Assembly (NCBI GenBank): GCA_009760855.2 | Contig: WPIO01000064.1 | Coordinates: 124,001-188,000 of the forward strand | Reading direction: 5' to 3' | Length of the DNA stretch: 64,000 bases | From: Cristatella mucedo | Lineage: Eukaryota; Bryozoa; Phylactolaemata; Cristatellidae | Shown here: one piece after another, positions 42,369 through 61,741 of the stretch | How the letters are laid out: the number at the start of each line of letters is the position of its first letter | Numbering within the stretch: the stretch's first letter is position 1 | The notes under the pieces: model-generated | What the model was told of the DNA's origin: nothing | The model's input: only the letters and a program-made list of their open reading frames with translations | The model's database searches: none | Position numbers and translations under genes: made by a program

Positions 42369-42612
42369 ATAATCGCTTACGTTGCCGACGTAAATGACCA
42401 CGCACCTGTCTTCGCTGCAACGGGTAATGAAGGGGCGGCGAGCGTCGTCCTGGGATCGCCTATAAGAACGCTCGTTGCTTGCGTCTCTGCGACCGACTCC
42501 GATCAACCCGACACAAGCAACTCCCGCGTCACGTACGAGCTGTCAAAAAGCGACGACTTTGCAATCGACGGTACGACTGGACAAATTACAACGAGGAGGC
42601 TCATTGAAGGAG
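42369..42612 (+). CDS. Cadherin exon 13, module 1 A exon
   Basis: A 244-base exon, phase 0-1, from GTATTTTTCAG to G|GTACGG. It opens with IIAYVADVNDHAPVF (calcium linker), then SPIRTLVACVSATDSD (conserved Cys and DxD), VTYELSKSDDFAID and TGQITTRRLIEG. The XEX motif expected after 'TGqi' is absent, as in the other A exons. This is the first exon of the modular part of the gene and the most diverged A exon. Confidence 0.93.
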
Positions 42613-42814
42613 GTACGGCTGTAGCGTCGACAGTAGCCTGAACTGGGGATACAAAATTGAATTCTATCTATGCTCTCTTTCCATTTCTTTCTTTCGTCTC
42701 GGGATTCAGGTGACACAGCAGGATCAGTTTTCTCGGTTGCTTGCAGCAACTTGATCCTATCACTGAGCACAAAAGGATAGACGAAAAGTTGTGCTCATTT
42801 CACAAGGGCTTTGT

Positions 42815-42905
42815 TTATTTCTATTTCTATTTATTGTATTATTTCTATTACTTATATCTATATTTCTATTTCTATAATTATTATTTATTCATTTATTTTT
42901 TTCCG
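42815..42905. repeat. T-rich low-complexity stretch
   Basis: Repeats of TTTCTATT and TTATTTATT with little else; intronic, between exons 13 and 14. Confidence 0.85.
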
Positions 42906-44109
42906 TGGTGATATAAATGCCCACGAGTTTATAAACCTATAATTGCACCTTTGATTAAAAAAAGTAGAATTACTGAAGAATTAGTAATCAACCAATCTGC
43001 TTTTTGTTTTTAGTGTGAGCATGGCTTTTATCTGTATCACTTCTTACGAAATTTAACTGGGTAGTTTACTTACAGAGCATCCTAGCCTCAAATGTTGGTC
43101 TCTTAGCATGCGGATTACACGAAGCTCACGTGACAGGCTCAAGCAGTTTCCACTAATTCACTGTTCTTGCTCACATAGATAGTTTGGCTAAGGAATCAAC
43201 TAGAAGGGTAATGTTCCGCATTTGAAGTAGCCAGCCGTGCGTCATGGTCACTGGACGAGCCGCTTCTTGTTAAATTGACGACCTCGAGCAAGATATTTGA
43301 GAAGATTAGGAATCCGGCATTATGGTGAATAACTGACACATGTGAGGTCTCTAGGTTTTCACCGATACGTAGAGCACGTATTTTGTGGAACCGACGGCTT
43401 GTATTTAAATGCTGGTCTTTAAAGAAATAGCCTTTATCAGCGCAAAATACATACTTCCACAGATTTATTTTAAATGCAAAAGTTAACGAAATTCATTAGG
43501 TTTATTTTTGGAATTTCGAAGTAACTCTCTCGAGTTGAGCTTGAGTTCATTAATCCAGCTCTTTTTTGGTGAAAATTAGTTACGGAAAGGCGTCAGTTAG
43601 AATTTGAAAAAAACTAGAAGCGAATATAATGTTATGAGTATATGTCAAAGCTAAGCAGCTTAAAGACACACGAAAGTCACGTGAAAGTCGTCCGGGCGTT
43701 GGAGGTCGTGCTTTACACGCCGCTCAGTACAATTGCCCAATCTCATCTATCTTGATTTTTTTGTTTTGTTACGGGTATCTTTCCCGGGACCATTTAGAAC
43801 TGTCAATATAATGCATTTGAGCCATCTGCTGTAAAGCGGTGGATGATTTGAAGAAAGTGGTGACAGAAATAAAGATTTATTTTGTTACAATGAGCACCAC
43901 GCAATACAAGAAAGAGTTGGTTGGTATGAAAGCCACAAATAGTTGAGAAAGCAAATAATCCTGAGTCGGCATGCGATGAAATAATTTTTCGGTGCACGTT
44001 GTTTCCATGTCCCCACTGACAGGGCAGCAGCAATGGTAATGGCTGCGGCAGCAGTAAGTTCAGCTTTAGCTGCCAAGGCGGCACTAGAAAAAATCTTCAA
44101 TACTTTTAG

Positions 44110-44271
44110 GACCAAGATCAATTACCGTGTCTGTCACTGCTAAAGATGCAGGCTTGCCACAACTTCAGAGCACTACAAATATTTCTATCAATGTGATGAT
44201 AGCGTCTGGAACTAATTTTCAGTTTGGCAGCCCAATGTATTTGGCTAATTTTACGGAAAGCAATAATACAG
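44110..44271 (+). CDS. Cadherin exon 14, module 1 B exon
   Basis: A 162-base exon, phase 1-1, from ACTTTTAG to G|GTAAGA. It encodes SITVSVTAKDAGLPQ, then NISINVMIASGTNFQF and a first strand ending in FTESNNTG. The terminal strand ends in ASGTNFQF where a calcium-binding repeat would have DxNDNxPxF. Two N-glycosylation sequons are visible (NIS and, near the end, NFT). Length and phase match modules 2 and 3 exactly. Confidence 0.9.
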
Positions 44272-44502
44272 GTAAGATATAATGCTATCGCGGTAAGAAC
44301 CAACTTGTGCCAACCACAATAAATGTCAAGTTTTAAATAACCCAGTGAAGAGCGATGCTGCCTTAAGAATGCCGTTCCTTATAATGCCTGATTCAATTTC
44401 TAGCTCTCCTTGGAATTCCTCTCAATACAGCGTAGCTTACAAACCTAATTTTGCTTTCTAATGCAAGATCGCTTGCCATACGAACCTTTCGATTTGCCAC
44501 AG

Positions 44503-44726
44503 GCGCACTGGTGCTAGTAGTTGAGGCCACTATGGACGGCGCACAATCTGCTACGACGCGGTACACGATCGACAGCGTCGCCCAGCAAGCAGTGCCGTTT
44601 TCTGTGGACGAGTGGAGCGGCAAAATCCACGTTGCCTCGATTATTGACCGAGAGCAAAAGGCATCTTGGAGCTTTACAGTTAAAGCAATCGATAGCAAAG
44701 CTTTCAATAGAACTGCCTACACTGTT
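44503..44726 (+). CDS. Cadherin exon 15, module 1 C exon
   Basis: A 224-base exon, phase 1-0, from GATTTGCCACAG to GTT|GTAAGT. It encodes LVLVVEATMDGAQSATTRY, then AVPFSVDEWSGKIHV, IIDREQKASWSFTVKAID and RTAYTV. DRE is the XEX motif feeding the next canonical linker in exon 16. The DxDxGxN block is replaced by TMDGAQS. It is nine bases longer than the C exons of modules 2-4. Confidence 0.92.
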
Positions 44727-45475
44727 GTAAGTATTAACGCGCGAAACGACGCTGGAAAGACTAGCAACAACTAAGCCACAAAGTTGAGTGAAAATTTAAA
44801 TATATTATGCCAAGGATGCGTTTTTAGGATGGTCAGTAATTGATATGACTTTTGTGTATTCAAGATGGCCATTGAAGATACGAACACATGAATTAGCTAA
44901 TACAGTATCTACTGACAATGCCCCCTTTCTATTTCTCTCTCACTCTCTCTCTTTTGTTCATTGTGAGCATAACCTCAAGAAATCTATTCCTTGATCCTCA
45001 CCATATCCATCCCTGCTAGTACTTTGCTTAGACTTATTCAAAAGTTTTTTTTATTCCCATTTTATCAAGTCGACATTTCCTAGTCGGCGTGTTTTAATTT
45101 GTATATCGCTACATTATAATTTGTGTCTGACAAATGCACTTCAAAATTGCTTAGTTTTCTCAAGCCTGCTTGCAGTAGAGGAAAAAAGTTAGAGTTAATT
45201 GCAGCTAAGATGAAATAGCGAAAAATGTCAGTGACTCTTTGCAGTTACCACGAGAATGCGATGCAACACAAATAACTTTTGTTCAAACCCTGAGCGAAAG
45301 ATTTTTTTACGTATCCAGCATTGTCACCCGAATCTTACCGAATCTAGAATTGCCATTCTGAACCTTACTTGAATCGTGAAAAGATCATGTAAAGTGAAAC
45401 ATGATCTTTGGGAAAATATTCAGAGACTTAGTTAGAATTGACTAGTTGCCCTGAGCCAACGCTTTTGTGACTCAG

Positions 45476-45713
45476 GTTACTGTGAACATCAAGGATGTCA
45501 ACGACAACACACCGATCTTCAAGGAATCAGCAGAAGCTAAGATACTGGAAGGTAGCCCAGAGGGAACCCTCATTGCCTGTGTGTATGCCGCAGACAATGA
45601 CGAGCCCGGTCAGGCCAATTCCGAAGTGGAGTACACAATATCAGGTAGTGACGCCAATCTGTTTCTCGTTGAAAAGAATACAGGAAGAGTCACCTTGGCA
45701 CAACGGATAGGAG
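45476..45713 (+). CDS. Cadherin exon 16, module 2 A exon
   Basis: A 238-base exon, phase 0-1, from TGTGACTCAG to G|GTAAAC. It encodes VTVNIKDVNDNTPIF (consensus calcium linker), EGSPEGTLIACVYAADND (Cys plus DxD), VEYTISGSDANLFLVE and TGRVTLAQRIG. It is clearly closest to the A exon of module 3 (EGS.EGTL.AC.YA.D.DEPGQ). No XEX motif follows the TGRVTL strand. Confidence 0.95.
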
Positions 45714-47194
45714 GTAAACTTATGCTATTGTGCGATCGCAATAATTTTGCAGGAGATTTATTTAAATGCAGCTGTAGCATGAACTAAGATGTATGTTGGA
45801 TTTTTATCATGCGTTTTTTTAATTAAGATACGAAATGTTTCGGAAATATCAGTTAACATGTGCACGGGGTCGCAGCTGTGCTTGCAGAGCAGCTACAGGG
45901 CAGCAGTCTTCAAAACGTGGAAATATCAGGAAAAATAAATGCCTGGCACTTTAAATTTACTTCTATTGCTCAAGTCAATGAAAGCAGTAATTTTAGGTAC
46001 ATTTATTATACATTTATATATACCAGGAGAGCAATATTTTCTTCGACTAAATATTGTTTACTGCCATTGACTACCTGATGGCGAACAATTCGATAACTTT
46101 AAATGAACAATTTTACACTAGACTTTAATACATGTCATTCCGATTTCTAATCTAAAAGAAACTTTTTAAAGATTGGATTACAATTTATTTTGGTGTTTCT
46201 ACTGCATTATGTTTCCTGTAGCAAATATAACCCCAATTCTCTCGTGCTAGCTGAAATCGACACAAATGCGAGGTGAAATAGGGATAGCTCTTTTACACTT
46301 TCTTATCGAGTCTGATCTGGCCCAAGATATATGCCCAAGATATACACACCGCCAAGACCACTTTCTATTGGAAAAGTCTTCTTGCACAGTGGTGGGTAAT
46401 TTTTAGACCAAGATTCTATAAGTATGTATGCAATATTGAAGCGCTTTGGTGATTATATGAAATAGGAAAATATAGAAAGTTTAGTAAAAATTCAATACAG
46501 TGCAACACAAGTAGAAAATTACCTTTTGCACAAAGGATTACTTGAGATATGCCTATAAGAATTTACAAAACTGCATCTTGAAATAATGTCACGATTTTTG
46601 AAGTAGTCGTTAAAAATCTCAAAACTTCTTATGGTAATAAATAGAAAAATAATAGATATTTCTGAAGCGACAGACCATTTATAAATATTATTGAACAGAT
46701 GCGCAATACGTTGCTATTTATGGGAAATTTTCAAAAGCAATGGCTCTAGATCTTATGCAATATCAACATTAAGAAGGTGTTAACAAAAAGTGATGTAATC
46801 TCAACCTCAATTACTATCAAACTATTTAATTCAAAGAATTCAATGCAGGTCACTGTGGTCAAGAAAGCTAGCAATCATACTAGAGAAAAAGCCAAAAATG
46901 GCACAGTTGACATTAGTGAGACATTTAAATGCACAATTTCTTCGGCAGCTACGCTTTAAGTAAAATTGGGAACAATGAGAACTTAGCACAATGACAGAGA
47001 CAAAGTGTCACGAATTATCAATGTGGTTGCAGCAGCTTCGTGGACCTGATTGATAACATATTTAATAGGCTATAAGGAAACCATTATTACTTAGCATTCA
47101 TTGAATCAGAGAAAGGGCGAAAGATCTGAGTGGAAGGAGAAGTTGCAACAACGAGAAAAAGAAAAATGTAAGTGACGTATTAAAATAGCCGGCC

Positions 47195-47350
47195 AATGTC
47201 ACCCCTAACCATGTTATTCAAATTGTCTATCAAGCATGGTATTACTCACCATTCAATCGTGTTTCTCTTTGCAGCAAATGTAAAGTGCCTAGAAAGAGAG
47301 AGATTGATTTCTCTGAGGGGGCTTTATCAAGTGTATTATCATTATTTTTA
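47195..47350 (+). mobile_element. LINE-A 3' tail
   Basis: It contains the LINE-A 3' UTR (CACCCCTAACCATGTTATTC) and the hairpin region AAAGTGCCTAGAAAGAGAGA ... GAGGGGGCTTTATCAAG with ATT-rich end. It lies in the intron between exons 16 and 17. Confidence 0.8.
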
Positions 47351-47941
47351 TACAGCCAGAATTTGGGCATAGATTGGTGCAGAGGCACAGACAAAGACTG
47401 CAGCAGAACAAGTTGGGTAATATCACAATATATCTGTTAGTCTTTATATGAGCTCCTTATAAATCTAGAGATTTAACTATGAAACTTTTGTAGAGTAATT
47501 ATAATTCAGCTATAGGCTTCTTCTGATATTAGGAAATAAGTCTTAGTGAGTGACAATGTCTAGTGAAGAACTTCCATCCGCAAGGATCTCTCAAATTTTC
47601 AAAGAGGTTAGTAATACTATGCTGCTGACTATATTTATCTAACACAAGAGCTAAAAACAAAAAGGAGGTATAACTTTATAGGATTTAATCTAAAAAGGAG
47701 AGGGTATTTTAGCTAATAGTTCTGATTGCAAATGTGTGAAAAAACCCTTAGAAATGGACGTGCAATTAGTGTCCTTATTTGGTGTTTTAAATGCTAATGC
47801 GGCTAATGTTTTTAAATTTCAAGTCTATTAATGCTCTTTAGAAGTTTTCAAATTACTTTGCATAATTAAAACGCGTTTTTATAATCTAGGGCCCAAAGCC
47901 TGTCATGGTGCTTACATAGGAAGAGTTTCGTAAAGGAAGCC

Positions 47942-48135
47942 ATTCGAGCCACCGTGTTAGCTTTTCCCCAATAATCTTAGCTGCTGTTTTAGAACGTCGA
48001 AGGGTTACCGTTGTCATCGCAGCGTCAGACTTGGAAAGGAGGCGTAATTCGAGCCACCGTGTTAGCTTTTACATAATAATCTTAGCCAATGTTTTAGAAC
48101 GTCGAAGGCTTACAGCTACTATCACAGCCTCAGAC
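47942..48135 (+). repeat. 105-bp tandem duplication covering the exon 17 acceptor
   Basis: The stretch starting ATTCGAGCCACCGTGTTAGC at 47942 recurs at 48047. Each copy carries a branch/pyrimidine region, an AG (47991-47992 and 48096-48097) and the start of the exon. Copy 1 encodes RRRVTVVIAASD and copy 2 RRRLTATITASD. The offset of 105 bases is a multiple of three and the reading frame is open across both copies, so use of the upstream acceptor would add 35 residues in frame. Copy 1 has no donor of its own. Confidence 0.88.
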
Positions 48136-48259
48136 CGAGGATCACCTGGACTCAGCGCAACCACTGACCTTGTCGTCGAAGTAGTTGAAACATTTGCAAC
48201 AGTTTTTGCCTTTGAAGAGTTGAACTACAAAGCAGCGATCCTCGAAGGTCCAGCTTCAG
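48098..48259 (+). CDS. Cadherin exon 17, module 2 B exon
   Basis: A 162-base exon, phase 1-1, from CAATGTTTTAG to G|GTGCGT. It encodes RRRLTATITASDRGSPG, then LVVEVVETFATVFAF and YKAAILEGPASG. The linker ETFATVFAF has no calcium ligands. The acceptor and first part of the exon are tandemly duplicated 105 bases upstream (see the feature at 47942), so this exon has two possible starts in the same frame. Confidence 0.92.
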
Positions 48260-48531
48260 GTGCGTTTTGAATATCGCCTTTTGGGGGCCTATGTCTTTCT
48301 AAAACATCTTTTAGTCTTGTCTCTGCCCATTTTTCCAGAAAAATACGTTTCAAAATCGCCCAATTACAAGAGAGAGCATTCGCATCGTTTAATGCCGTGG
48401 GTGGGCATGAATAGCGAGTGCTATAAGTATGTAAGAGCTTCAGAGAGATCAATAGAACTGCCTTTTAGAGGATTGAGTGCGTGATAAAATGGCAGTGGTG
48501 GTCTCTGTCAGAGTCATTCTCATTTCTACAG

Positions 48532-48746
48532 GTCGCAACGTAACGCGCGTGACTGCAAATGTAAATGGCAGCTCGTCATCGACTACCAAGTACTCATTAC
48601 CCGACCAAGCAGTACCATTCGCAATCGATCCTACAACAGGCCAGGTGACGCTCATTGGCGACGTTGACCGAGAGAAGAACAGCTCGTGGATCTTCCAAGT
48701 AGCCGCAGAAGACAGCAGTGTTCGTGCACAAACGGCATATGCATTG
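48532..48746 (+). CDS. Cadherin exon 18, module 2 C exon
   Basis: A 215-base exon, phase 1-0, from CATTTCTACAG to TTG|GTGAGT. It encodes VTRVTANVNGSSSSTTKY, AVPFAIDPTTGQVTLIG, DVDREKNSSWIFQVAAED and TAYAL. The DRE motif is intact. VNGSSSST replaces the DxDxGxN calcium block and contains an N-glycosylation sequon (NGS); a second sequon (NSS) follows DRE. Confidence 0.94.
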
Positions 48747-51700
48747 GTGAGTATGTCTTCGCATTTTCTGCAGACAGTCACAGCTGCCGAATGCGCACCA
48801 CATTGAAGCGTTTCGTTTCACAGGTAAGTTGTCCTGAAAGCTGGATGAAAGCAAGGAAAATTAGTCAAAAATTTCCATCTTGCACTGTGGATGTTATGAA
48901 GAAGATATTACAATGACAATGCCAAAATAGATATATTAAAATCGGAATTTTACAGTGGGAATGTTACCGCGGGTGATAAGCCCCTGATTAATATATCCTG
49001 CAGGGTTTCGAACCACGTTCTGCTTGATCGGCGCTATGATATATATATGTGTGATGATAGTATGGATGCACTGAAGAACATGGTCAATCGCTGACAGAAG
49101 CATGTTTGAATGCGTGTCAGGGATTCAAATATATCGATACTGTCAATTTGGCTCAAAAATTAGTTATATCAATGACATCAGCTACATATTTATTTACGTT
49201 GCATTAAACCAAAAAGTTGTATCTGGATTTTTGAACGTTTATTCTCTATTTATTTGTAAGGTAAATACTTTGTATAGAATGTTAGTATTTTATCCCAAAG
49301 CTTACGGTTAGTAGCTGTAGCCTGCGATCCGCGAGCTTTATTCTATCTGCTATATGGGAAAGGAGTATATTTCTCTTTTGCGAAGGGGAAACTCATCCGG
49401 GCAATTTTTTTTCTAAAAGCGTGTTCTAAGGTTCCAATGCGAAGGAAGATTGGCTGGGGTACCTGACCTTAAGAAGAAGGCGGACAGCACCACTGTCAAG
49501 CGTCTGAAGGCACAGTAGCCTATCTGAGACGAGTTCTTTTTACCATTCCCACATCAAGAGTGGACGTATCCCCTTAAAACACACTTAATAATTATTCATA
49601 TTATTGCATTAAAAATAGGCACAAGCACACAAGCAAAGAAGCAACGCTAGCTATTATTTACATGTACCGACTGCAGTAAGCTCGACCTTCTGACGCGACC
49701 GTATGGCCTCTAGGTCACGTTGTAATAATAATAATACAATTACTATAGCGCCCTCAGGTAACTCAGTTTTCTCTCTAGCCACTTTATATCTATTACAAAG
49801 GAAGCATGGTTAGTGGCCGAGTGTCCAAGCATGGTCACCAAGAAAAATCAATAGAATTGTTACTATGCACTGCAGAACTAAGCAAAACCACTAAACATTT
49901 GCAAGGTACTTGGGAAATTCCTTAGCCAACATAAAAAGAAATACAACCACTTGGTTTTATAAAAATGATGAATAAATGAGGAAATCATGACCAAGGACAT
50001 TTATTTCAGTAAATTCGTAGCAAAAATTATCCCCAATTGAAACCGAAAATGTGATTGGTAATTAATTTAAAAGCAGAATTATACTTCTACTACAAATCCT
50101 ACGTTGATCGGAAAAGTCTAGGCCAAGAAAATAAATTTAGAAGGTACCAGATAGGACTGTTGGGCAACTCATCGAGAACCCGACGGAGGATCTCAAGGCA
50201 TGTCACTGAGTATGACTCAGCCTGATAAATTCCGAAGATAAAAAAAAATTAAAGCACCTTACGAGGAAACTTTGCTCCAAATTCTAGGTTTGGTCAGATC
50301 ACTATTAGCTTACCCTTTATACTTGCAAGAAATGAGTGCAAACAGATTGGCTAGTTAAATAGTCAGCATCCCAGCCAAGCTGGCCAATACAACAAGGTCA
50401 AATGTGCATCAGAGACGGCTTAAGTGCTCTGAAAGCGTAACCCACGGCAGCATGTTTGAAGTTTAAAGTTGATTGAATCGCTATTATCCGAGCTTTGCAA
50501 TCTGCAAAACAATGGCCGGCAGTTTACTAAAGCTGTACCTTCGGAGCAAGCAGGCCATCAAGACCAGCGCTCAGCAAAGCGTGCAATGCAAAATGAAATT
50601 GTCGCATTCAGATTTCCTTACCTTAAGAACTTAATGAACCTTACAAAAAATCTCGGGATTCGCCTAATCCCACTGCGAACAAACCGGTATTTGGCAATAC
50701 GATATTGGTCTTCGGAAGGTAGTGGTGAAACTGCCGTGTGTCGGACTCAACAAACCCATGTAATAGTAACCAGCATTGCAAGCTTAAATAAACCACCTTC
50801 AATTTCCTTAAATACAACTGAACTAGCTTTCTTCGACTGATTTACAATGACTGAAGTTCTAGTTCAATGCAGTACTAATACCAGAATATTTGATCCGCCC
50901 CGCTGTTTAATTTCATGTCTGTTAACTATCACTCTATGGCGAGTGTGGACCTTGGGGGCGCGTCACATTTAAAATATTCAAAGCAGATTTATGGTTTCAC
51001 GTGCTTTTCGGTATCAGATTAGCATTGCACAGTCTCTATTGATGAAGTTCAGCGAAGAAAACCCTACTAATATTAGTGGGATATCGATCGATGCCTATGT
51101 GAGCGAGGTCAAATGACTACTTCCGGTGTGAGAAGGCTTTAGAAATTATTTTTAACCATTGCCCTGGTTGTATGTAAAGTGTTAAAATTGATTGAATTAC
51201 ATTTATAACGCATTTTTCTTTTGAAAGGCAAACGTCATGCAAAATCGACTTTCTTTCGACATGACCGATCTTTCGACTGCTATGCCTCAATTTACTGTTG
51301 AGCTTTGATACTAATGCAAAACCTTAAAGTTGTGACATTTATATCTGAGAAAGGTGAAGGGCGTGTTAAGAGAAAATCTGCATCATCGTAAGGGAAGGAA
51401 CAGATTCACTTCAAGGCTTTCGTTGCTGAATGCCAAAGAGTATCACTATCTACTATATATGAACCTCTCAACTGAGGCTTACTGGGTAACCAGCTTAAAG
51501 TCTGTCTAGACCTATCATGCAGCATCACTGTTTCTTTAACAGGACGAGGAGAAGGGGGTTGTAAAAGAAATGGATAACGTTAAATACTATGTCTGTTTCA
51601 AAGTGAATGCGAGTTATTTCAATGCATTAGCTCTTGCTCATTTCGATTGAGAAAAATCTGCTGGAAACAGAAAATGCGATGCTTTGGCAAAGCTTGAAGA

Positions 51701-51891
51701 TTTATGTAGCCCAACTACTCATGATCGTGCTGAGAAAATTCTAATTGGACAGAAGGCTGATGAAATAATATTCTTTGACCTCCTGAAGCAGAATAACGTC
51801 ATGTTTAGGTTTTGCTTTTATTACGGTCATCGTGTGCAGATGCATGCTGACATTGTCTGCAGCAGGCGTTTTGATCTGTTTTAAATTGTAG
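48747..51891. other. Intron between exons 18 and 19, little recognised
   Basis: Only a LINE-A tail (49722-49818) was recognised. A 123-codon open frame at 50469-50840 has no recognisable domain and no splice context. Confidence 0.5.
49722..49818 (-). mobile_element. LINE-A 3' tail, degraded
   Basis: (AAT)n then ATAGCGCCCTCAGGTAACTC and CTCTAGCCACTTTATA, a minus-strand hairpin end with several changes. Confidence 0.65.
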
Positions 51892-52147
51892 GTAACTGTA
51901 AGCATCACTGACATTAATGACAATACACCAGTATTCAGGGGGTTAAAGGAAGACCAGGGTGAGTTTGAAGCAAAACTACTCGAAGGTTCCAGTGAAGGAA
52001 CGCTCGTTGCCTGTTTGTATGCAACCGACGTTGACGAGCCAGGTCAGATCAACTCTGAGGTTGAATACAGAATATCGGGAAATGGCAGCGACATGTTTTT
52101 GGTTGACCAAGTGACAGGAGAGGTCAAATTGAGAAACAGCATAACAA
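51892..52147 (+). CDS. Cadherin exon 19, module 3 A exon
   Basis: A 256-base exon, phase 0-1, from TTTTAAATTGTAG to A|GTAAGC. It encodes VTVSITDINDNTPVF (calcium linker), EGSSEGTLVACLYATDVD (Cys plus DxD), VEYRISGNGSDMFLVD and TGEVKLRNSIT. A slightly longer loop after the linker (KEDQGEFEA) explains the extra bases relative to module 2. Confidence 0.95.
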
Positions 52148-52587
52148 GTAAGCAAAAACTGCGCTTAAGATATCTTAAGATATGTGAAGATTTTCTTGAA
52201 ATGTGTACAATAAAAACTGCATTTTCGTCTGATAGCCAAATAGCTATCTGTCCACACTGCAATTTAGTGGGTACTTGTCTTCACATATATACCAAATAAA
52301 GCGGTTTACTTATACAACAGTGTCACTGCTGATTCTCAAATTTGCAAGTTTTCTAAAGTATTCATCACTGGTAGGAAGTTGAAATATATCCGTATATGTC
52401 AATAGAAGTAATAACTAAGCTATTGCATAAGCATTGTCCATGGCTTCTATACACTTCTGCTCCAATAGCAATTACGAGAAAATGTAGGTCAGTATAATAG
52501 CCTAGAAATTAAGCCCACAAAAATTATCTGTCATCGTCGTCAACCTAAAGATATGGAAACATCTTCACTGCACTGATTTCGATTGAT

Positions 52588-52722
52588 GTAATGTAATTTA
52601 ATGTATCTCCATCTGTAACTACACAAAGCCATAAAACTATGTGGGTGTTACGCAAGAGAGTTTTGTATAGCCAACTAACAGCTTAAGTGGCTTTCGGTAC
52701 GCATTTGGTAGCCGACAGACTT
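52588..52722 (-). mobile_element. LINE-B 3' tail
   Basis: ATGTAATGTAATTTAATGTA then CTCCATCTGTAACTACACAA is the reverse complement of the LINE-B end with its pentamer tail; it continues to GGTAGCCGACAGACTT. Confidence 0.75.
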
Positions 52723-52894
52723 AATAAACTCAGGTTTGCTGTGAGTATAGAGATTATCTTTTAGGACAAAAAGCTGTCCATTTGCTAGGCACCAAGCATT
52801 AAAAACGGTACTAAGACGCTACGATCTGACCTCAAGAGATCGTGCCTGAACCTAGTTCGATAGATTTAATTCTGTTGAGCAGCGAAATACTGAG

Positions 52895-53060
52895 CCGTGA
52901 GAGTCAGGAAATAAGTCACTTGCTCTCCATGACCGAGGTCGTGGGTTCCAATCCTGCAGTGGACGATCCTTCATCGCCAACTGCAAGCGGTGGTGAAAGT
53001 TGTTAAGGCTTCTCTGCCACTGGATGAACGAGCCTGTTTAATCAGCTAATATGTTTTGCT
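52895..53060 (+). mobile_element. SINE2 copy
   Basis: It keeps the B box (GGGTTCCAATCCTGC) and the body CAACTGCAAGCGGTGGTGAA and GAACGAGCCTGTTTAATCAG. The A box is decayed. Confidence 0.7.
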
Positions 53061-53685
53061 TTGATCTAGAGCTCATTAAATCTTGTGTCAGAAGTAATTG
53101 CATGCTAACATGAGATAAATTAATCAGAAGAAGAGTAAGACGAAAACAAAACATACTGATATCCATTTCAGTATTAACTCAAGATATTAACTAAAGAAGA
53201 CAAGCTTATAGCAAAACTGAAATACTAGATCCCAATTTATTGAACACGATGCTAGCTTGTGATAGCAGAGGATAATGGAAGTCTAGCCAGAAATACCGCC
53301 CACAAGTAACCCAAAAAGATGATTATTCCCCAAATAGAGAGGGAAGTATGTGTGGTATCGGGAGCTGACTCGTAGATGTTGTTACAAGTTCTTTAGCCGA
53401 CATGTTGTCACTAAGAATTCTACAATAATACGCTGATATTTATAAAAGCTATTGATATTTGGACTTAGTGCAGATAAGAGGAAAATAGAGTATTTACCAC
53501 TTGAGTGTGCACTTGCAATGAAAAGATTGATCTCGAGTTAGATTTCAACATCATAGGGCTCATCACGCCTATGTAAAAGTGGTGCTTTTAATTAAAGGTA
53601 CAATAACTGTTAAATTGCTTTCTCCTTTAATTTTTTGATGATTCTGAACGAGCTTTATAATTTATATGTCTTTATATAATTACAG

Positions 53686-53847
53686 AGCCTCAGAAGGTAA
53701 ATGTTACCGTTACTGCTTCTGATCGTGGAGTACCTCCAAAAGATACGAAAGTTCATCTTATTGTTGATGTGGTCGAAGCGACTGCTCCTACCTTGAAATT
53801 TGAACAGCAATTGTACGAGTCGGTGGTTTCCGAGAATGCAGAAATCG
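53686..53847 (+). CDS. Cadherin exon 20, module 3 B exon
   Basis: A 162-base exon, phase 1-1, from TATAATTACAG to G|GTACGT. It encodes QKVNVTVTASDRGVPP, VHLIVDVVEATAPTLKF and YESVVSENAEIG. The linker reads EATAPTLKF in place of a DxNDNxPxF motif. An N-glycosylation sequon (NVT) lies in the strand before ASDRG. Confidence 0.93.
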
Positions 53848-54347
53848 GTACGTTTTTATTACTGTTGATCTTCAAATTTCTCTAGCTAGGAGTAAAATTG
53901 ATTTATTTAAGAGCAATTATTAATTAAAAATGTTTGTCGATTTATCTGGAATTGAATCAACCTCCTATCGAAGAATTGAAGGTCAGGAACCACAAACTCA
54001 GTCTTTGTGGCAGCATAGGCAACAAGAAAAATTAGCCGTTTTTAGACTGCCATACCCAGGCCATAATTCAAAGTAATTGGCCGCAAATCTTTATAGCATG
54101 CAAAATTAATTCCTCACAAAATAAAGAGAATTCGTGATTGAAATTGAATTTCGAACTAAAAAAGGCGAGTTGACTAAATTAAAACCGAGTGCTTTATTTT
54201 ATCTTAATTGTGCTGAATTACACTAGCTTCCAATATATTTAGATGTCTAACTCAAAACAGGTGCTGGGATGCATTTCTTCGTGCCCATGCGACTAAAAAC
54301 TGACTGAAGGCTGAGCATGAAAATTACGTAATTATTTGCTTTCATAG

Positions 54348-54562
54348 GACTCAAAGTGGTACAAGTGAGAGCAACAGTGAACGAGACCGCCTCTTCAACG
54401 ACGAGGTACTCGTTACAAGACGTCACGGTGCCATTCAGAGTCGACTCTGAGACCGGCCAATTCACTGTCGAGGGTAAAATCGATCGGGAGAACCGGACTT
54501 CGTGGTCATTCCAAGTTAAGGCAGTGGACAGTGAATTTCGTGGGATAGTCGCCTATGCACTG
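54348..54562 (+). CDS. Cadherin exon 21, module 3 C exon
   Basis: A 215-base exon, phase 1-0, from TGCTTTCATAG to CTG|GTAAGA. It encodes VVQVRATVNETASSTTRY, VPFRVDSETGQFTVEG, KIDRENRTSWSFQVKAVD and VAYAL. DRE is intact; the DxD block is replaced by VNETASST, which contains the sequon NET. A second sequon (NRT) follows DRE. The next intron is 5705 bases and packed with repeats. Confidence 0.95.
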
Positions 54563-54704
54563 GTAAGATTTTCCGAGCTAAGGAAAGGCCTTTCGCAATA
54601 TCTAGATTAGTAAATTTCGCTATTCAAGTAGTCGCTTAATCGTGCATACCGGCATGATTGTGGCAGCTGAAATATAATGGTGGAAGAGCTGCTTTGAAAG
54701 GTTC

Positions 54705-55456
54705 TAAATTAATATGTAATCTATCTGCGTCTGTAACTTCACATAGCAACAGACACTATGTGAGAGATAAGCTTGAGAGTTTTGTATAGCCCACTCACAG
54801 CCTAAGCGGCTTTCGGCAATTTTTTGTTCGGCAATTTTTTGTTCGGCAATGCTGTCGATGATTTTTCCAAAGCAGCTTTCAGTACGCATTCGGTAGCCAA
54901 GAGACTTCGTTTCACGCAATAAGCAGAATGTGGGAAGCAGAGCAGAGTCAGGAGAGCAGTCGAGGTAGTGAGTAGCATAGAGGTTGCAGCTCAGGATATC
55001 TGAAATAAATGTGCCATTGTCTGCAGCAGCAGAGGAGTAGTCGGTGAGTAATAGTCTTGGAATAGAGTAATGCAATCTGGGACCTGCAGAGCTAAAGCTT
55101 CTTTCGCCAACGGTATTTAAGCTGAGGACATTAGCAGCTAATTTATTGTCCATACAGGACCTACGGGCACACAGAGGCTGAAACTGGTGCTGCAGTTCGG
55201 CTAAGTAAGTATGAAAGAGCCAAGCTGCGGCGGGCCTTCTGGGTCAGCGTAAGAACTTAGCTCTGTATCCGTTGATCAACTCGCAGCCATACTAGCTCTT
55301 TTAGTAAAGAAGACACACGGTCAAACCTCTGGGATAAGCAAACTAACATTGCAGCAGCCATATTCATAGCCATCTGCAGTGGCCTAGTTGCTGTTTTAGG
55401 TAGCCCAGCGAGTGCCATTTGGAAATTTGACTCAATTTCAGTTCGTTCTTCCATAC
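54705..55456 (-). mobile_element. LINE-B 3' region
   Basis: The - strand reads LINE-B coding remnant (MDNKLAANVLSLNTVGERSF ... FCLLRETKSLGYRMR) and the 3' end with CTGTAACTTCACATAGCAAC on the + strand. A 15-base unit (TTCGGCAATTTTTTG) is repeated about 2.5 times at 54822-54850, giving IAEQKIAEQKIAE in translation. It lies directly after cadherin exon 21. Confidence 0.78.
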
Positions 55457-55604
55457 TGCTTGTCCTGTAATATTTATCGTAAATTTTGAGAAATCATTCT
55501 CTCAGATGCAAGTGGAGCGATTTAAAATATTTATTTCCAGGAAAGTTATTAACTTATTCTATTAATAATTAAAAATTTGAACAGCATTTTCTTGCAGCTC
55601 GTTG

Positions 55605-55815
55605 TAAAGCTCGTGGATAGGGATTTATTTCCTTAGGGCACTGTGCAAAATACCTAGTATCACTATTGTCGTGCTGGTTTGGCCCAGTGGTTAAGGTACT
55701 CGCCCTGACCAAGGTCTGGCCGAGATCGCGGGCTAGTGCCCTGTGGCATACGCGAAGCACCTGAATAGAGGTGAAGTTCTCGCAGGATGCTATACAAATA
55801 AGTTATCTATTTATT
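55605..55815 (+). mobile_element. SINE1 copy preceded by a separate tail fragment
   Basis: From 55672 the A box TGGCCCAGTGGTTAAGG, a changed B box (GGGCTAGTGCCC), and the tail GAAGCACCTGAATAGAGG ... GATGCTATACAAATAAG are present. Upstream (55605-55655) a second tail-like fragment (AAAGCTCGTGGATAGGGA ... TTAGGGCACTG) suggests two insertions side by side. Confidence 0.78.
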
Positions 55816-56507
55816 TATATTTACTCTCATTATTATTTTTATTATTTTTGCTAGCCTATAGTAGTGAAAGATTCCGGGAAAATATGTAGTCAAAATTCAC
55901 TTTGGGAGGCGAGCCTGAGAATCCAACGACGTAGCCGGTGAGCCAGCCTTACTAATGGGTAATAGTGCAGTTCTTTCTTGACATAAAAAATATTAGAATT
56001 GCAAAATTAGTGTTCAAAATAGTTTAAAGTTTGCTTTGCATTGAAAATAATACAATAATGATGGTGTTATATATACACGTTTGAAATATTAAATCAATTA
56101 GTTTATTATTGTAATTCTTTTGTTTCGATTAAACTATGCACCGTTCAATTTTAGCTAGGACAGTGCAAGCTGTAGGTACGACGAAAGTTAACAGAACTAT
56201 TTTCCCTACTCTTTTTGAAGGGACTCATTATAACTTCGCTATTTTTGTAATGCAAATCTCACAAACGGAAAAGCGTAAATGTGACGACAATGACTTAAAT
56301 TACTGGACACACTTATTTACTTAATCAGTTCAACATTATTGGGACAGATTACCAAGAGTAACGCAAGATCAGGAAACAGCTTACTAGAACCTTGAAATAA
56401 GCTGAAAAGAAATTATACCGTCTGAAGTGTTTGGGTGCTTAAACACGACGAAGCTCGTGTGCTCTCGTAGTGTGAATTACGAAATGGTTATTAGCTGCTT
56501 GCTCAAT

Positions 56508-57261
56508 GTCGGCTTAAAATGTCAGCTTAAAATGTCAGCTTAAAATGTCAGCTTAAAATGTCAGCTTAAAATGTCAGCTTAAAATGTCAGCTTAAAATGT
56601 CAGCTTAAAATGTCAGCTTAAAATGTCAGCTTAAAATGTCAGCTTAAAATGTCAGCTTAAAATGTCAGCTTAAAATGTCAGCTTAAAATGTCAGCTTAAA
56701 ATGTCAGCTTAAAATGTCAGCTTAAAATGTCAGCTTAAAATGTCAGCTTAAAATGGCAGCTTAAAATGGCAGCTTAAAATGGCAGCTTAAAATGGCAGCT
56801 TAAAATGGCAGCTTAAAATGTCAGCTTAAAATGTCAGCTTAAAATGGCAGCTTAAAATGGCAGCTTAAAATGTCAGCTTAAAATGTCAGCTTAAAATGTC
56901 AGCTTAAAATGTCAGCTTAAAATGTCAGCTTAAAATGTCAGCTTAAAATGTCAGCTTAAAATGGCAGCTTAAAATGGCAGCTTAAAATGGCAGCTTAAAA
57001 TGGCAGCTTAAAATGGCAGCTTAAAATGGCAGCTTAAAATGGCAGCTTAAAATGGCAGCTTAAAATGGCAGCTTAAAATGGCAGCTTAAAATGGCAGCTT
57101 AAAATGGCAGCTTAAAATGGCAGCTTAAAATGGCAGCTTAAAATGGCAGCTTAAAATGGCAGCTTAAAATGGCAGCTTAAAATGGCAGCTTAAAATGGCA
57201 GCTTAAAATGGCAGCTTAAAATGGCAGCTTAAAATGGCAGCTTAAAATGTCAGCTTAAAAT
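56508..57261. repeat. Minisatellite, 58 units of 13 bp
   Basis: Exactly 58 units of GTCAGCTTAAAAT or its variant GGCAGCTTAAAAT (T or G at the second base). Order: one unit with GTCGGCTT, 18 T-type, 5 G, 2 T, 2 G, 7 T, 22 G, 1 T. There are no length variants among the units. It abuts a LINE-A end at 57257-57262 and lies in the intron between exons 21 and 22. Confidence 0.97.
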
Positions 57262-57655
57262 GGTTATGGGTGAAATGCACAAAGTCAGCAAGCAAATATT
57301 TTTAGTGGCAGTATGCACAGTGCTGAGACACGTAAGCTCACAAAGGATGAATTGCATGGACCAGCTAAATGCTGTGATCAATAGATGCGTTTTTAGCTTC
57401 GTTTTTGGAAATGTCAAGTCTGAGGATGTAGAAAAGCCAGTTGGAAGTGAGTTCCAAGCTCTGGGAACATACGAACTAAAGGCACTGTCTCTAAAGGATT
57501 TGAGGTTCATACCACTTTTCGCCAACCTGCACTGGCTTCCAGTCAAGCAACGGATCGACTTCAAGGTTTTGTCGCTTACTTTGAGGGCCCTCCATTCTTT
57601 AATTCCAGCCTACCTATCAGATCTACTACCCCACCAGGCCAAGCATCGTACCAAA
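57257..57655. mobile_element. LINE-A copy with an internal inversion
   Basis: Bases ~57257-57511 match LINE-A on the - strand (coding remnant FRDSAFSSYVPRAWNSLP), while ~57512-57655 match the immediately upstream part of the element on the + strand (FANLHWLPVKQRIDFKVLSL). For an element inserted on the - strand this is exactly 3' part followed by inverted 5' part. The 3' hairpin is missing; the 13-bp minisatellite abuts that end. Confidence 0.7.
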
Positions 57656-58266
57656 GCAAGTAGGCCACTGCAGCCGACTACGAATATGACTGCAAGGCTA
57701 GTCTTCAAGTCCTAGAGGTTTGAGAAGGCGTCTCCTTTGCTAAAAGAGCTAGGATGGATGCCGGTTGAGCAACGGATACAGAGCAAAGTTCTTACGCTGA
57801 CCAGCAAGGTCCGCCACGGCTTGGCTCCTTCGTACCTAGCTGAACTACTGTCTCAGTTTAAGCTTGTTCGAGCCCTCAGGTCCTGTGTGGATAATAAATT
57901 AGCTGTTCCATTCCTCCGCTTAAAGACCGTTGGCGACAGACACTTTAGCTCTGCAGGTCCCAGACTGTGGAACTCGCTTCCACAATTCCTATGCAATGAC
58001 AGCTACTCTCCTGCTTCCGACAATGACTCATCCTTTTCAGCGGTCATACGCTGCTACTGCCAAGCTACTCACTACCTTAACTGCTCTTCTGACTCTGCTA
58101 TGCTTACCATTTTCTCTTTATTGCTTGAGACGAAGTCTGTTGGCGTCCGAATGAGTACCAAAAGCCGCTTAGGCTGTGTGGGCTGTAATAACGACTCTGC
58201 GTAAAACACACATATTATTTGTGGATTTGTGGAGTTACAGACGGAGCTACATTACATTACATTACC
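57656..58266 (+). mobile_element. LINE-B 3' region
   Basis: It starts at AAGTAGGCCACTGCAGCCGA directly after LINE-A sequence, encodes LLKELGWMPVEQRIQSKVLT and FLRLKTVGDRHFSSAGPRLW in remnants, and ends GGAGTTACAGACGGAGCTAC then (ATTAC)n. It is the best preserved C-terminal part of LINE-B in the window. Confidence 0.82.
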
Positions 58267-58267
58267 G

Positions 58268-58644
58268 CTCAATTTTAGGAAACTTACTGTTTACCTACAC
58301 CTCGTACAAACCTCAAATCCTTTGGAGACCCTGCATTTGTTCGTGCTCTCCCAAAGCCTGGAACTCACGCCTGACTTGCGTCACGACATCCCCTGACTTG
58401 ATCACATTTAAAAATAAATTAAAAACGCAACGCATTTATTTATGACAGCATTTAGTGGGTCCCGTGATCCGTCATTTATGTGCTTATGCATGCTGACCCT
58501 GTGCATGTCACCCATAACCATGTTATGCATGTTGTTTATCAAGCATGATACCACTCAGCATTCGATCGTGTTTACTTTGCAGCAAACGTAAAGCGTCTAG
58601 AAAGAGATTGAGTTATCCGAGGGCGCTTTATCAAGTTTATTATA
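58268..58644 (+). mobile_element. LINE-A 3' end
   Basis: It starts around GTTTACCTACACCTCGT, covers the CCTTTGGAGACCCTGCATTT segment and the 3' UTR (GTCACCCATAACCATGTTAT), and ends with AAAGCGTCTAGAAAGAGATT ... GAGGGCGCTTTATCAAG and a short ATT tail. It follows directly on the LINE-B tail at ~58266. Confidence 0.8.
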
Positions 58645-58766
58645 CGAGGTGTAGGTAAACGATTTATTTCAGAAAAGCGGGTGGTACAATGATTAGCCCG
58701 GTAGGAGAGTAGATCTGACAGGTAGGCTGGAGCCAAAGAGTGGAGGGACCTTAAAGTGAGCGACAG
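58645..58766 (-). mobile_element. LINE-A internal fragment, inverted
   Basis: On the - strand it reads as LINE-A coding remnant (CACTCTTTGGCTCCAGCCTA, then ACCACCCGCTTTTCTG) ending ATCGTTTACCTACACCTCG. Its first 17 bases are the reverse complement of 58290-58306, so the preceding LINE-A piece is flanked by a 17-bp inverted repeat. Confidence 0.65.
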
Positions 58767-58785
58767 AAATTAAATAAATTATAAT

Positions 58786-58917
58786 TCATTGGTATAGCAC
58801 CCTAAGAGAACTTAATCTCTATTCAGGCGCCTAACATATGCCACCGGGCTCGAGCCTACGACCTCGGCCAGACTTTAATCAGGGCGATCACCTTAACCAC
58901 TGGGAAAAACCAGTGAT
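58786..58917 (-). mobile_element. SINE1 copy
   Basis: The + strand shows ATAGCACCCTAAGAGAACTT, CTATTCAGGCGCC, the reverse B box GGGCTCGAGCCTAC and the reverse A box CCTTAACCACTGGGAAAAAC. Confidence 0.8.
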
Positions 58918-58984
58918 CCTAGCTATACTTAAAAAAAGGCACTTAGCGATTTCTTGATGAAAAAAATAAAAGCTTAGGTGATTT

Positions 58985-59045
58985 AACTGCTTCGTTTATA
59001 TAGCAGCAGAAGAGCCTTTGTGGCTATTAACACCACTCGCGGTAT
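58985..59045 (-). mobile_element. SINE2 fragment
   Basis: Only the reverse body end remains: TATAGCAGCAGAAGAGCCTT and GCTATTAACACCACTCGCGG. Confidence 0.5.
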
Positions 59046-59504
59046 GCGGAGTGAGCCGTATGAATAGACTGGCACTTGTTCCCTTTCAGCTGAACGGCTG
59101 GCGGAAACCTGGATAAACTATCTATGAAAAGGCGCCATTCTGCAGGTGATTCCAAAGTCCTAAACTAGAGGGTCCACATTGTTGCAAGAGCACAGCCCTA
59201 CCTCGCTGACATAAGAAATTAGAAAAAGTTAGCCACGCTTTCTCTGACCTCTTTAACACTTTCATCCAACCAGTTCCTTAGCTTGAACGTAGATATAGGA
59301 AACTCTCCACTCGACCATGTAAGACGCAGGTTTCTGACAAAATCGTAGAGGTCTTAATGGTGGAAATAATGACGTTTTCTCTGCAGCCGCATCTGTGAAA
59401 TCCGAATCGGACCTGCAATATATTGCCGCTGTCTCACTTGCGGGTATCTCGTGAATATGGCTGATACATTTCAGGTAGGGTATTGACGTGATTAATTTAA
59501 CGTA

Positions 59505-59795
59505 AATATAATCTATCTCCGTCTGTAAATCCACACAGCCACAAAGACTATGTGGGTGCTACGCAGGAGAGTTTTGTATAGCGCACTCACTGCCTAAGCG
59601 GCTTTCGCTGCGCATTCGGTGGCCAACAGACTTCGTCTCACGCAACAAAAAAAAGTTGGAAGCATAGCAGAGTCAGGAGAGCAGTTGAGGCAATGAGTGG
59701 CATTGAAGTAGCAGCTCAGGACCGCTGAAAAGGATCTGCCATAGCCGGCAGTAGGAAAGTAGTTGTCGTTGCGGAAGTATCTCATCACTTTTGCA
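59505..59795 (-). mobile_element. LINE-B 3' end
   Basis: The + strand shows ATCTATCTCCGTCTGTAAAT, CACAAAGACTATGTGGGTGC and GAGGCAATGAGTGGCATTGA, the reverse complement of the LINE-B 3' region. Confidence 0.78.
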
Positions 59796-60267
59796 ATTCG
59801 AATTCAGCAACGTTTCATCTAAGCTGATGCTCTGCATGTGGTGTTGTGTTTAAAATGACGATCTTATCAATATTCGACAGGCTTCTCCTCAGCACCAACT
59901 GGGAGGCATAACATAGTCTTACGTTGGGATACTTACCTTTCTTCCAGAAACACATTCACGCTGTTACCACTTGCTTGACGGGAGCGAAATTAAGGTTGTA
60001 AATAGTTAAACAATTTCATAAAGATAGCTATAGCAAGCTTTATAAATGGCCTTTTGCGTTAAATAGAGTTACTCAAAATAATCAAAACCCGCAGCCGTAA
60101 TTAAAAAGTACTCGTTGAGGTCAAGTGGTGCTATCTTTCTTTATTGATGAATATTAGAGCTGGAACTCTCGTAAAGAAAAGCAGGATAGAATTGTGAGAT
60201 GCACAGTTGGACATACGCATTTGACCTGCATATTTCGCCTGAAGTGTATGCTGAAACAAACTTCCAG

Positions 60268-60520
60268 GTCACGGTAGAAGTTGAAGACGCCAATGACAAC
60301 GCTCCCGCGATCAAAGGATTAAGAAATCGTGATGGTCAACTTGAAGCAACTGTGTTTGAGAACGCAGCAGTGGACACACTCGTGACTTGTATCTACGCAA
60401 CCGACGAAGATGAGCCCGGCACGAATAATAGCTTAGTGACCTACTCTATCTCATCAAACAGTGGACTACGCATCAATGCGGAAACAGGAGAAGTGAGACT
60501 GGCTTCACCGATTGCACACG
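60268..60520 (+). CDS. Cadherin exon 22, module 4 A exon
   Basis: A 253-base exon, phase 0-1, from CAAACTTCCAG to G|GTAAGC. It encodes VTVEVEDANDNAPAI (calcium linker, with Ile for the usual Phe), VDTLVTCIYATDEDEPG (Cys plus DxD), VTYSISSNSGLRIN and TGEVRLASPIA. Like the other A exons it lacks an XEX motif after TGEV. Confidence 0.94.
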
Positions 60521-60889
60521 GTAAGCAGTCTCTGAGTGGTTTCCTGGTGCTGGCTGAAAGACTCGCGAAGTGCAAACAGCTTGACGAGCCCTGTTTGTTC
60601 CTGATCGAATGAGTCTTGCAACTCCGTCTGCATGTCTCTTACACCTGGTCTAGCGGCTCGGACACCGGTAGGAAATGTACGATGCGAGAAGCCGTTAAAG
60701 ACCATATCGCTTGATCTTTACATAGCAGCAGCTGCTGGGATAAATTTTCCTCACTGGCGAATTAAGGCTCTGCAAAGCGGACGGATGATTTCTGGGCACT
60801 TGACGGTCGTCTGACGTTTCGCGAACGTTAGAATTGTATTAAAATCTTTCCGTGCATTTATTATTAAGTGAAACCAACGTATTTTACAG

Positions 60890-61054
60890 AGACAACAAAC
60901 ATATCCGCAGAAGTGACTGCCGTCGATCGTGGAATTCCGCCTCAACGGTCAAACGTCAGTAGCCTTTTGGTGAAAGTAATTCAAACTGTTGACGTCGGCA
61001 TAGAGTTCGTCAAGGCAAATTACTTGTCAACGGTTCCTGAACATTCAAAAGTTG
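60890..61054 (+). CDS. Cadherin exon 23, module 4 B exon
   Basis: A 165-base exon, phase 1-1, from CGTATTTTACAG to G|GTGAGT. It encodes TTNISAEVTAVDRGIPP, SSLLVKVIQTVDVGIEF and YLSTVPEHSKVG. The linker QTVDVGIEF lacks the NDN calcium ligands. It is three bases longer than the other B exons but has the same phases. Confidence 0.92.
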
Positions 61055-61526
61055 GTGAGTAAGGTTCATCGCTCTTACTTCAAGCTGGATAAAATTCTTT
61101 ACAATGTTAGATCCCAGGAGGATAGGCAAGAAATAATATCAGGAACAGCCGCACCAAGACACCTAGTCGCTAGCTACTTCGATAATCAACCGTTAATGGT
61201 TATTATTTTGAGAATCGAGCATTACGAGCATGTGCCCGTCCCTACTCTTTGGAATCACATTTAGGTGACGTAATATGACAGTTTACGTTCGCACCGAGGT
61301 AAAAGTAACGAGGGTGGCTAGAATTGTTTATCGACTGCAAGTGATTTTCACGGATTACGCATTACTTCACTAACTTATTCATATCCTTTTGTAATTTGAT
61401 TGAGGCTCACTCATTTTACTGTTCCGCTAATATATCGGTGTTTATCTCACCCAAATGACCGGCTGGAACGCGATTGAGACCATTACAGTGCATCCTAATT
61501 AACCATTCACTACTTATCCGCTTTAG

Positions 61527-61741
61527 GGACACAGATCGTCACTGTGGCTGCCAAAGTGAACGGTAGCACGTCTGCAACAACGAGATATTTCTTGCCGAGT
61601 TTAGAAGCGCCATTTAGCGTGAACGAAACATCGGGACTCGTGACAGTCCGAGGAGACCTTGATAGAGAAACTAAAGCGTCGTGGACTTTTCATGTAGGCG
61701 CATCGGACGATTCCGGAACAAGCACTGCCGCTTACACTTTG
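61527..61741 (+). CDS. Cadherin exon 24, module 4 C exon (last exon seen)
   Basis: A 215-base exon, phase 1-0, from TATCCGCTTTAG to TTG|GTAAGT. It encodes IVTVAAKVNGSTSATTRY, APFSVNETSGLVTVRG, DLDRETKASWTFHVGASD and AAYTL. DRE is intact; VNGSTSAT replaces the calcium DxD block and holds an NGS sequon. By the module pattern an A exon should follow, but none is visible before 64000, so the gene continues out of the window. Confidence 0.94.

Follow-up and report, generated by a model that had tools for sequence, protein, structure and literature searches.

A two-repeat periodicity of calcium-type and degenerate linkers in a predicted giant cadherin of the bryozoan Cristatella mucedo

Calcium-free linkers between extracellular cadherin repeats (ECs) occur in multiple long cadherins, and the passages available of one study give their function as unknown (PMC5120219). 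DN-cadherin and DE-cadherin carry such linkers (Jin et al. 2012, as relayed in passages of PMC8325961, PMC5120219, and PMC5473995), and the calcium-free linkers of DN-cadherin and of PCDH15 are described there as bent or flexible (PMC8325961, PMC5120219). Here, we analyze a stretch of 64,000 nucleotides from the bryozoan Cristatella mucedo (contig WPIO01000064.1, called C603 below, positions 124001-188000, in a 572-Mb genome of 688 contigs). This stretch, the window, encodes part of a predicted non-classical cadherin assembled from modules of two ECs each, and across these modules linkers with a full set of calcium ligands alternate with degenerate ones. Neither calcium-free linkers nor long cadherins nor EC duplication is new; within the open-licence literature that we searched, the novelty is the every-second-linker periodicity.

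Alternating Linkers

An initial sequence-only reading of the window proposed 12 modular exons, A1 to C4, between positions 42369 and 61741 of the forward strand (positions are those of the window unless C603 is given). All 12 lie where they had been placed, with AG/GT borders throughout, and together they encode an open product of 837 amino acids. A module is a three-exon unit, A-B-C, that encodes two ECs, called Ea and Eb, and the entry phases 0-1-1 of A, B, and C repeat four times, each next A being entered in phase 0 again. The outer borders of the unit are in phase 0; thus, insertion of a further unit would leave the reading frame intact. The Pfam profile PF00028 matches eight stretches of the product of modules 1 to 4 (E 1.3e-86). 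Scored singly, the eight ECs, including a shortened Eb4, reach 37.3 to 49.1 bits, each above the curated cut-off of 28.8.

To score the linkers, we aligned the ECs to a local cadherin profile and recorded five motifs per linker: XEX-base, DRE/DYE, DXNDN, DXD, and XDX-top. Residue numbering and site assignments are taken from classical cadherins. Ligands are given in the order XEX, D67, E69 / D100, N102, D103, N104 / D134, D136, N143, XDX. The same five motifs served for PCDH15 in the passages at hand of PMC5120219.

Five more modules lie downstream of the window, for a total of nine. All eight linkers between modules are complete (E,D,E / D,N,D,N, with H in Eb8-Ea9, / D,D,N,D), and across modules 1 to 4 the columns of D100, N102, D103, D134 and D136, of the Eb base Glu, and of DRE do not vary. 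By contrast with these eight, none of the nine inner linkers, which join Ea to Eb within a module, has the complete motif set. The inner linkers fall into five distinct ligand rows: L,E,G / I,S,G,T / -,D,S,D in module 1; E,G,R / E,F,A,T / -,N,S,D in module 2; E,T,P / E,T,A,P / -,N,S,D in module 3; E,A,E / Q,V,D,V / -,N,S,D in modules 4-8; and D,D,V / E, then unaligned, / -,N,S,D in module 9. These rows keep 2, 2, 2, 4, and 2 of ten side-chain positions, respectively, by strict count, with the last linker letters of module 9 placed by hand and anchored on the final Phe. The 17 successive linkers of modules 1-9 alternate without exception, and the series is degenerate at both of its ends.

The sequence-only reading had called the ectodomain strictly alternating and the pattern one preserved through tandem duplication. 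Both statements hold for the modules, and the second now reaches nine modules and 17 linkers; strict alternation does not hold for the whole gene, which has two calcium-type linkers in a row upstream and two degenerate ones downstream. The same reading overstated the case in saying that the inner linkers had lost all ligand groups. Specifically, the base Glu of XEX is present in three of the four in-window inner linkers and the Asp of XDX-top in all four. There are also residual acids: Glu at D67 and Asp at D136 in module 1 (the latter hinges on the placement of a one-residue gap), Glu at D100 in modules 2 and 3, and E69 and D103 in module 4. A missed exon that would restore DXNDN or DxD to an inner linker can be ruled out because both positions lie within single contiguous exons. 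The LDRE position falls at the A/B splice junction, where a micro-exon may, formally, exist.

The motifs on which the sequence-only reading relied are all in place. In module 1, exon A1 (42369-42612; entered in phase 0, left in phase 1) carries the calcium-type linker DVNDHAPVF and the first part of Ea1 with its DSD (PF00028 on Ea1, E 3.4e-11); exon B1 (44110-44271) carries the end of Ea1, the degenerate linker MIASGTNFQF, and the start of Eb1; and exon C1 (44503-44726) carries the remainder of Eb1, with MDG at the DxD place and IIDRE. Module 2 follows with A2 (45476-45713; linker DVNDNTPIF, then Ea2 with DND), B2 (48098-48259; degenerate linker VETFATVFAF), and C2 (48532-48746; Eb2, with the sequon VNGS at the former DxD, and DVDRE). 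Module 3 comprises A3 (51892-52147; linker DINDNTPVF, then Ea3 with DVD), B3 (53686-53847; degenerate linker VEATAPTLKF), and C3 (54348-54562; Eb3, with the sequon VNET at the former DxD, and KIDRE). In module 4, A4 (60268-60520; linker DANDNAPAI, then Ea4 with DED) opens a recent tandem array as its first copy, B4 (60890-61054) holds the partly degenerate linker IQTVDVGIEF, in which D103 is kept and E69 is made at the A4/B4 junction, and C4 (61527-61741) holds Eb4, with the sequon VNGS at the former DxD, and DLDRE. The exons after A1 are placed by their splice borders and the ligand table, together with Pfam for C1 and A2 and with the exon copies for A4. The DRE supplied by the C exons of modules 1-3 is as had been claimed; the limitation to those three modules is not, since module 4 supplies it too. 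At window positions 47942-48135, a partial tandem duplication of 89 bp (84% identical) involves the 5' border and acceptor of B2 and places a second acceptor-like copy just upstream.

The emptied DxD site has a further property. Its second Asp, D136, is still Asp in module 1, and in modules 2-9 it is an Asn that opens an N-X-S/T sequon (NGS in module 2, NET in module 3, NGS in modules 4-8, and NGT in module 9). Recurrence in four of five module lineages, with both Ser and Thr in use, is suggestive of a glycan at this site. Two findings temper this idea: the 2475-amino-acid chain encoded by the joined exons has 49 sequons versus approximately 28 expected from its composition, with near-identical modules each counted, and the loop at the former DxD is rich in Ser and Thr, so sequons arise easily there. 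Much of the recurrence is explained by shared ancestry.

How Unusual Is the Pattern?

As a control, we scored 15 regions of other C. mucedo cadherin genes, picked for long open reading frames (ORFs) among the cadherin matches of the genome. These regions contain 16 ORFs with EC matches, of which 14 have at least one scored linker and two have a single EC and no linker. A strict DXNDN pattern is passed by 17 of the 70 control linkers and failed by 53, a number that overstates calcium-free linkers, as the pattern also rejects near-canonical ones (DGDDQ in the present gene; xxNDNxP without the first Asp). Alternation over more than three linkers is found in none of the 14 ORFs. Thus, calcium motifs are often lost in this genome, and it is the regular alternation that stands out.

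Elsewhere in the genome, two giant cadherin exons of 1776 and 1697 codons, with 15 and 14 scored linkers, respectively, lie at C332:2620001-2630000 and C550:5164001-5173000. None of their 29 linkers passes DXNDN, and 13 of the 29 have R-N followed, three to four residues on, by P-x-(F or other), as in VKRNYYAPSF. These cadherins look largely calcium-free, with a linker sequence of their own.

We also searched for relatives of the modular cadherin. Of 35 matches to module 3 in the C. mucedo genome, 19 belong to this locus; the remaining 16, with 25-42% identity, are on other contigs that bear cadherins. Among viral contigs, 96 stretches fit a pattern and none was confirmed. A set of prokaryote genomes yielded 28 loci, all in bacterial records and at no more than 38% identity, save one 32-residue match at 50%. 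In the open-licence literature, covered as titles, abstract starts, and passages, we recognized no report of a regular every-second-linker pattern or of a fresh tandem array of two-EC units.

Origin of the Modules

Modules 4-8 form a recent tandem array on the forward strand at C603:183799-204096, identified by self-BLAST and exon copies; its in-window part spans 59799-64000, and modules 5-8 lie outside the window. The units measure approximately 4.6 kb, with successive shifts of 4583, 4595, 4584, and 4578 bp and identities of 99.2-99.5% by self-BLAST. Borders are intact in all 15 exons of the array. Relative to module 4, the encoded proteins differ by a His to Arg change in modules 5-8 and an Ala to Val change in module 8, and by nothing else. 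The exons differ at 0-6 of 633 positions, similar to the 0.15-0.68% of non-exon sequence.

Modules 1, 3, and 4 are 38, 52, and 42% identical to module 2, respectively, and within modules 1-4 identities are 30-51% between Ea repeats, 40-49% between Eb repeats, and 19-29% between Ea and Eb. In a tree whose bootstrap is not settled, the Ea repeats form one group (99/97), the Eb repeats form one group with weak support (84/7), and the upstream repeats ECb, ECc, and ECd are long branches. These data suggest that duplication of a two-EC unit, comprising one calcium and one degenerate linker, probably occurred several times in the distant past and has resumed recently. Because the tree and the identities show duplication, the four-fold pattern in the window does not represent four independent events, and hence we claim no chance probability for it.

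Upstream and Downstream of the Modules

Eight upstream exons (18369-40138) join A1 in frame, giving a combined product of 1221 amino acids with no stop. They encode the end of one EC, a, followed by ECs b, c, and d. Specifically, the forward-strand chain begins with E2 (18369-18482; the end of EC a, with LDYED), which is phase-consistent and, given its weak profile score, a putative assignment. Next come E3 (23264-23377), with the calcium-like linker DGDDQPPVF between ECs a and b; E4 (28489-28597), with ATDGDAGIN of EC b; and E4b (29041-29138), with ITTA at the DRE position of EC b, likewise phase-consistent and picked by eye among very weak candidates. E5 (30487-30654) carries the b-c linker, which is degenerate (VQRPPAMSEGRF) and lacks DRE and DxD, and leads into EC c without DxD. 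E6 (30902-31175) contains the end of EC c (LDYES) and the calcium linker DGNDNAPQF between ECs c and d, E7 (31275-31402) contains EC d with its DRD, and E8 (39992-40138) ends EC d and joins A1 in phase 0. The phase chain places E3, E4, and E5 to E8, and the ligand table adds to it for E3, E5, and E6. By profile, EC b (E 9.5e-5) and EC d (E 0.0048) are both under the Pfam cut-off, and EC c has no PF00028 match. The linker between EC d and Ea1 is the calcium-type DVNDHAPVF of A1, with an ambiguous DRE position. Because the c-d and d-Ea1 linkers are both of the calcium type, strict alternation begins only at module 1. Farther upstream, a probable exon E1 (10992-11078, forward strand; EDENDDDPIF) was left unjoined, as at least one exon is apparently missing before E2. 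The N-terminus was not found: the profile gave no match on C603 before position 152489, at a threshold that also missed E1 to E3.

Downstream of the array come the older module 9 and ECs x and y, together giving four PF00028 stretches. The chain from E2 to the last of these exons, X4, comprises 39 exons and is in phase and open. Alternation stops after module 9: the DRE of Eb9 is lost (KGG), the Eb9-x linker is degenerate, and the x-y linker is canonical. A hydrophobic, transmembrane exon with a good donor ends at C603:228964. Across 12 kb, it can be joined in phase to a candidate tail exon at C603:241324-241756, which has glutamine runs and whose frame ends in QTEL; further tail exons may exist, including one between the two. 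We take the QTEL end to resemble a class I PDZ ligand. No Pfam match to Cadherin_C was obtained up to E 0.5 in the candidate transmembrane and tail ORFs.

Two other kinds of feature occur in the window. A minisatellite with a 13-bp period occupies positions ~56350-57260 of the C3-A4 intron. Open frames of one recurring kind lie outside the exons of this gene at 36365-37090, 54704-55243, and 57233-58204, and resemble fragments of a long interspersed nuclear element reverse transcriptase.

What the Periodicity Could Mean

We lean, by a little, toward the reading that the locus is a single gene that encodes a giant non-classical cadherin with one transmembrane pass, in which calcium-stiffened EC pairs are joined by hinges and which has been lengthened two repeats at a time. 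The central ectodomain would comprise nine two-EC modules in tandem, of which four lie in the window. The linkers between modules, each joining an Eb to the next Ea and possessing the full ligand set, would be rigid, and the inner linkers, with most ligands lost, would be bent or flexible. The notion is that the ectodomain would form a chain of two-repeat stiff segments (each an Eb plus the next Ea) with hinges, able to fold or to extend; so long a structure could fold up within a narrow space or lengthen when loaded, and recent duplication of the unit, in modules 4-8, has altered its length. By analogy, we infer both the difference in stiffness between the two linker types and the use of folding or elasticity. 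The sequence-only reading had pictured a jointed rod with two-repeat rigid segments, a fair mechanical suggestion because the calcium-free linkers of DN-cadherin and PCDH15 are bent or flexible. More tentatively, we speculate that the protein could behave as an accordion: a giant adhesion or tether protein made of two-repeat units whose amplification is recent and may still vary, each unit having a calcium-locked linker and a hinge linker with an N-glycan at its emptied calcium site, in which copy number would tune length and folded size in whole steps of one stiff segment plus one hinge.

Several points weigh against the mechanical reading. Only five module lineages are independent (1, 2, 3, 4-8, and 9), and the absence of ligands may be inherited passively, one ancestral loss having been copied along. 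Degenerate linkers are common in the other cadherins of this genome, so loss alone is not special. The array copies are too young, with too few differences, to reveal selection, and the presence of all modules in one mRNA is a prediction from the exon chain. The inner linkers of modules 4-8 retain E11, E69, D103, and D195 and could hold part of one calcium site. Finally, mouse PCDH24 EC2-3 has a partly degenerate linker that, in the passages available of PMC8691648, is straight and binds two calcium ions. The periodicity could be a neutral by-product: the inner calcium site would have been lost once, in an ancestral EC pair, before duplication of that pair, with no function attached to the period itself. 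We give this account a minority share of our belief, and it and a selected periodicity are not mutually exclusive. That Ea is one lineage and Eb probably one (84/7 only), that five of the nine modules are near-identical recent copies, and that linkers without DXNDN abound in other C. mucedo cadherins all fit it. It accommodates less readily that alternate linkers are still canonical, and inner ones unreverted, across lineages 38-52% identical to module 2, and that N136 lies in a sequon common to four of the five lineages.

Other readings concern the inner linkers themselves. They might weakly bind one calcium ion, at least in modules 4-8, which would make the pattern graded rather than on/off; we hold this about as tentatively as the neutral account. 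The four acids retained in modules 4-8 correspond to the core of site 1 of classical cadherins, and the two calcium ions of PCDH24 EC2-3 (PMC8691648, in part) point the same way. Against it, D67, D100, N102, N104, and D134 are gone, D136 is now Asn, and modules 1-3 and 9 retain fewer ligands. A slightly more doubtful alternative is a fixed zig-zag or superhelix in place of a flexible chain, in which hydrophobic contacts, or glycans on the Asn of the former DxD, would hold the inner linkers rigidly at an angle. The N136 sequon of modules 2-9 would suit such a lock, as would the calcium-free linker of PCDH15 EC9-10, which is bent by about 90 degrees and has a structure of its own, according to the passages seen of PMC5120219; however, inner linker sequences vary among modules 1, 2, 3, 4, and 9, unlike a specific interface, and the Ser/Thr-rich loop yields such sites easily, the whole chain having 49 sequons versus 28 expected. 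It is unlikely that the modules are alternative cassettes, with most isoforms carrying only some of them: every unit is phase-symmetric, as cassettes would be, but in modules 4-8 no exon or splice border is disrupted. Most improbable, in our estimation, is an assembly artefact, with one or two true copies rendered as modules 5-8. The 99.2-99.5% identity of the copies invites that explanation, yet all ten copy pairs differ, by 2 to 20 non-exon substitutions plus gaps (over 1325 positions only for pairs with the shorter last copy), and modules 1-4, in the window, are independent of it.

Under the hinged-chain reading that we favor, the alternating series, with five near-identical modules, offers a ready-made test of calcium-free linkers: the same domains with countable hinges. 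Recent amplification of a coding two-EC unit could make ectodomain length a variable trait, and the recent in-gene array of a coding three-exon module is a candidate for copy-number variation.

Comparison with Known Cadherins

Tandem PF00028 ECs and ligand motifs at eight of eight between-module linkers place this protein in the cadherin superfamily. Its sequence matches among solved structures are ordinary cadherins, headed by CELSR1, with protocadherins, CDH23, and others next. The CELSR1 ectodomain (PDB 8vy2) has the same EC repeat family, whereas its linkers are mostly canonical in the alignments displayed. Clustered and delta protocadherins have six to seven ECs, mostly in one large exon; by contrast, the present gene has 24 ECs, the first and last partial, over 39 exons, and so falls outside that class. 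Classical cadherins have a catenin-binding tail, and no such domain appears in the candidate tail here (no Cadherin_C match up to E 0.5). Fat, Dachsous, and CELSR have a very long EC array, and the array here is long. Fat and CELSR also carry EGF and laminin-G domains, and CELSR has seven transmembrane helices; one transmembrane exon is recognized here. Tsukasaki and colleagues (2014) reportedly described some calcium-free linkers within the very long EC arrays of Fat and Dachsous; we know of no regular two-repeat period in either. CDH23/PCDH15-like cadherins have a single transmembrane segment and a C-terminal PDZ ligand, and the candidate tail here ends in QTEL.

The closest parallels are at the level of single linkers. 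In PCDH24 EC2-3, several ligands are gone from one linker, as in the inner linkers here, but that linker is straight and calcium-bound in the portion available of PMC8691648, which cautions against reading partial loss as a hinge. In PCDH15, itself a long non-classical cadherin, a single linker, EC9-10, has lost DXNDN, DRE/DYE, and DXD together; per the passages at hand of PMC5120219, XEX and XDX are replaced there too, whereas in C. mucedo the base Glu and top Asp mostly stay and the linker type recurs. DN-cadherin and DE-cadherin, in the sources cited at the outset and to the extent available, have single EC-EC linkers without calcium ligands that are predicted or shown to bend. There, single linkers within a long array are affected; here, it is every second linker of a duplicated unit.

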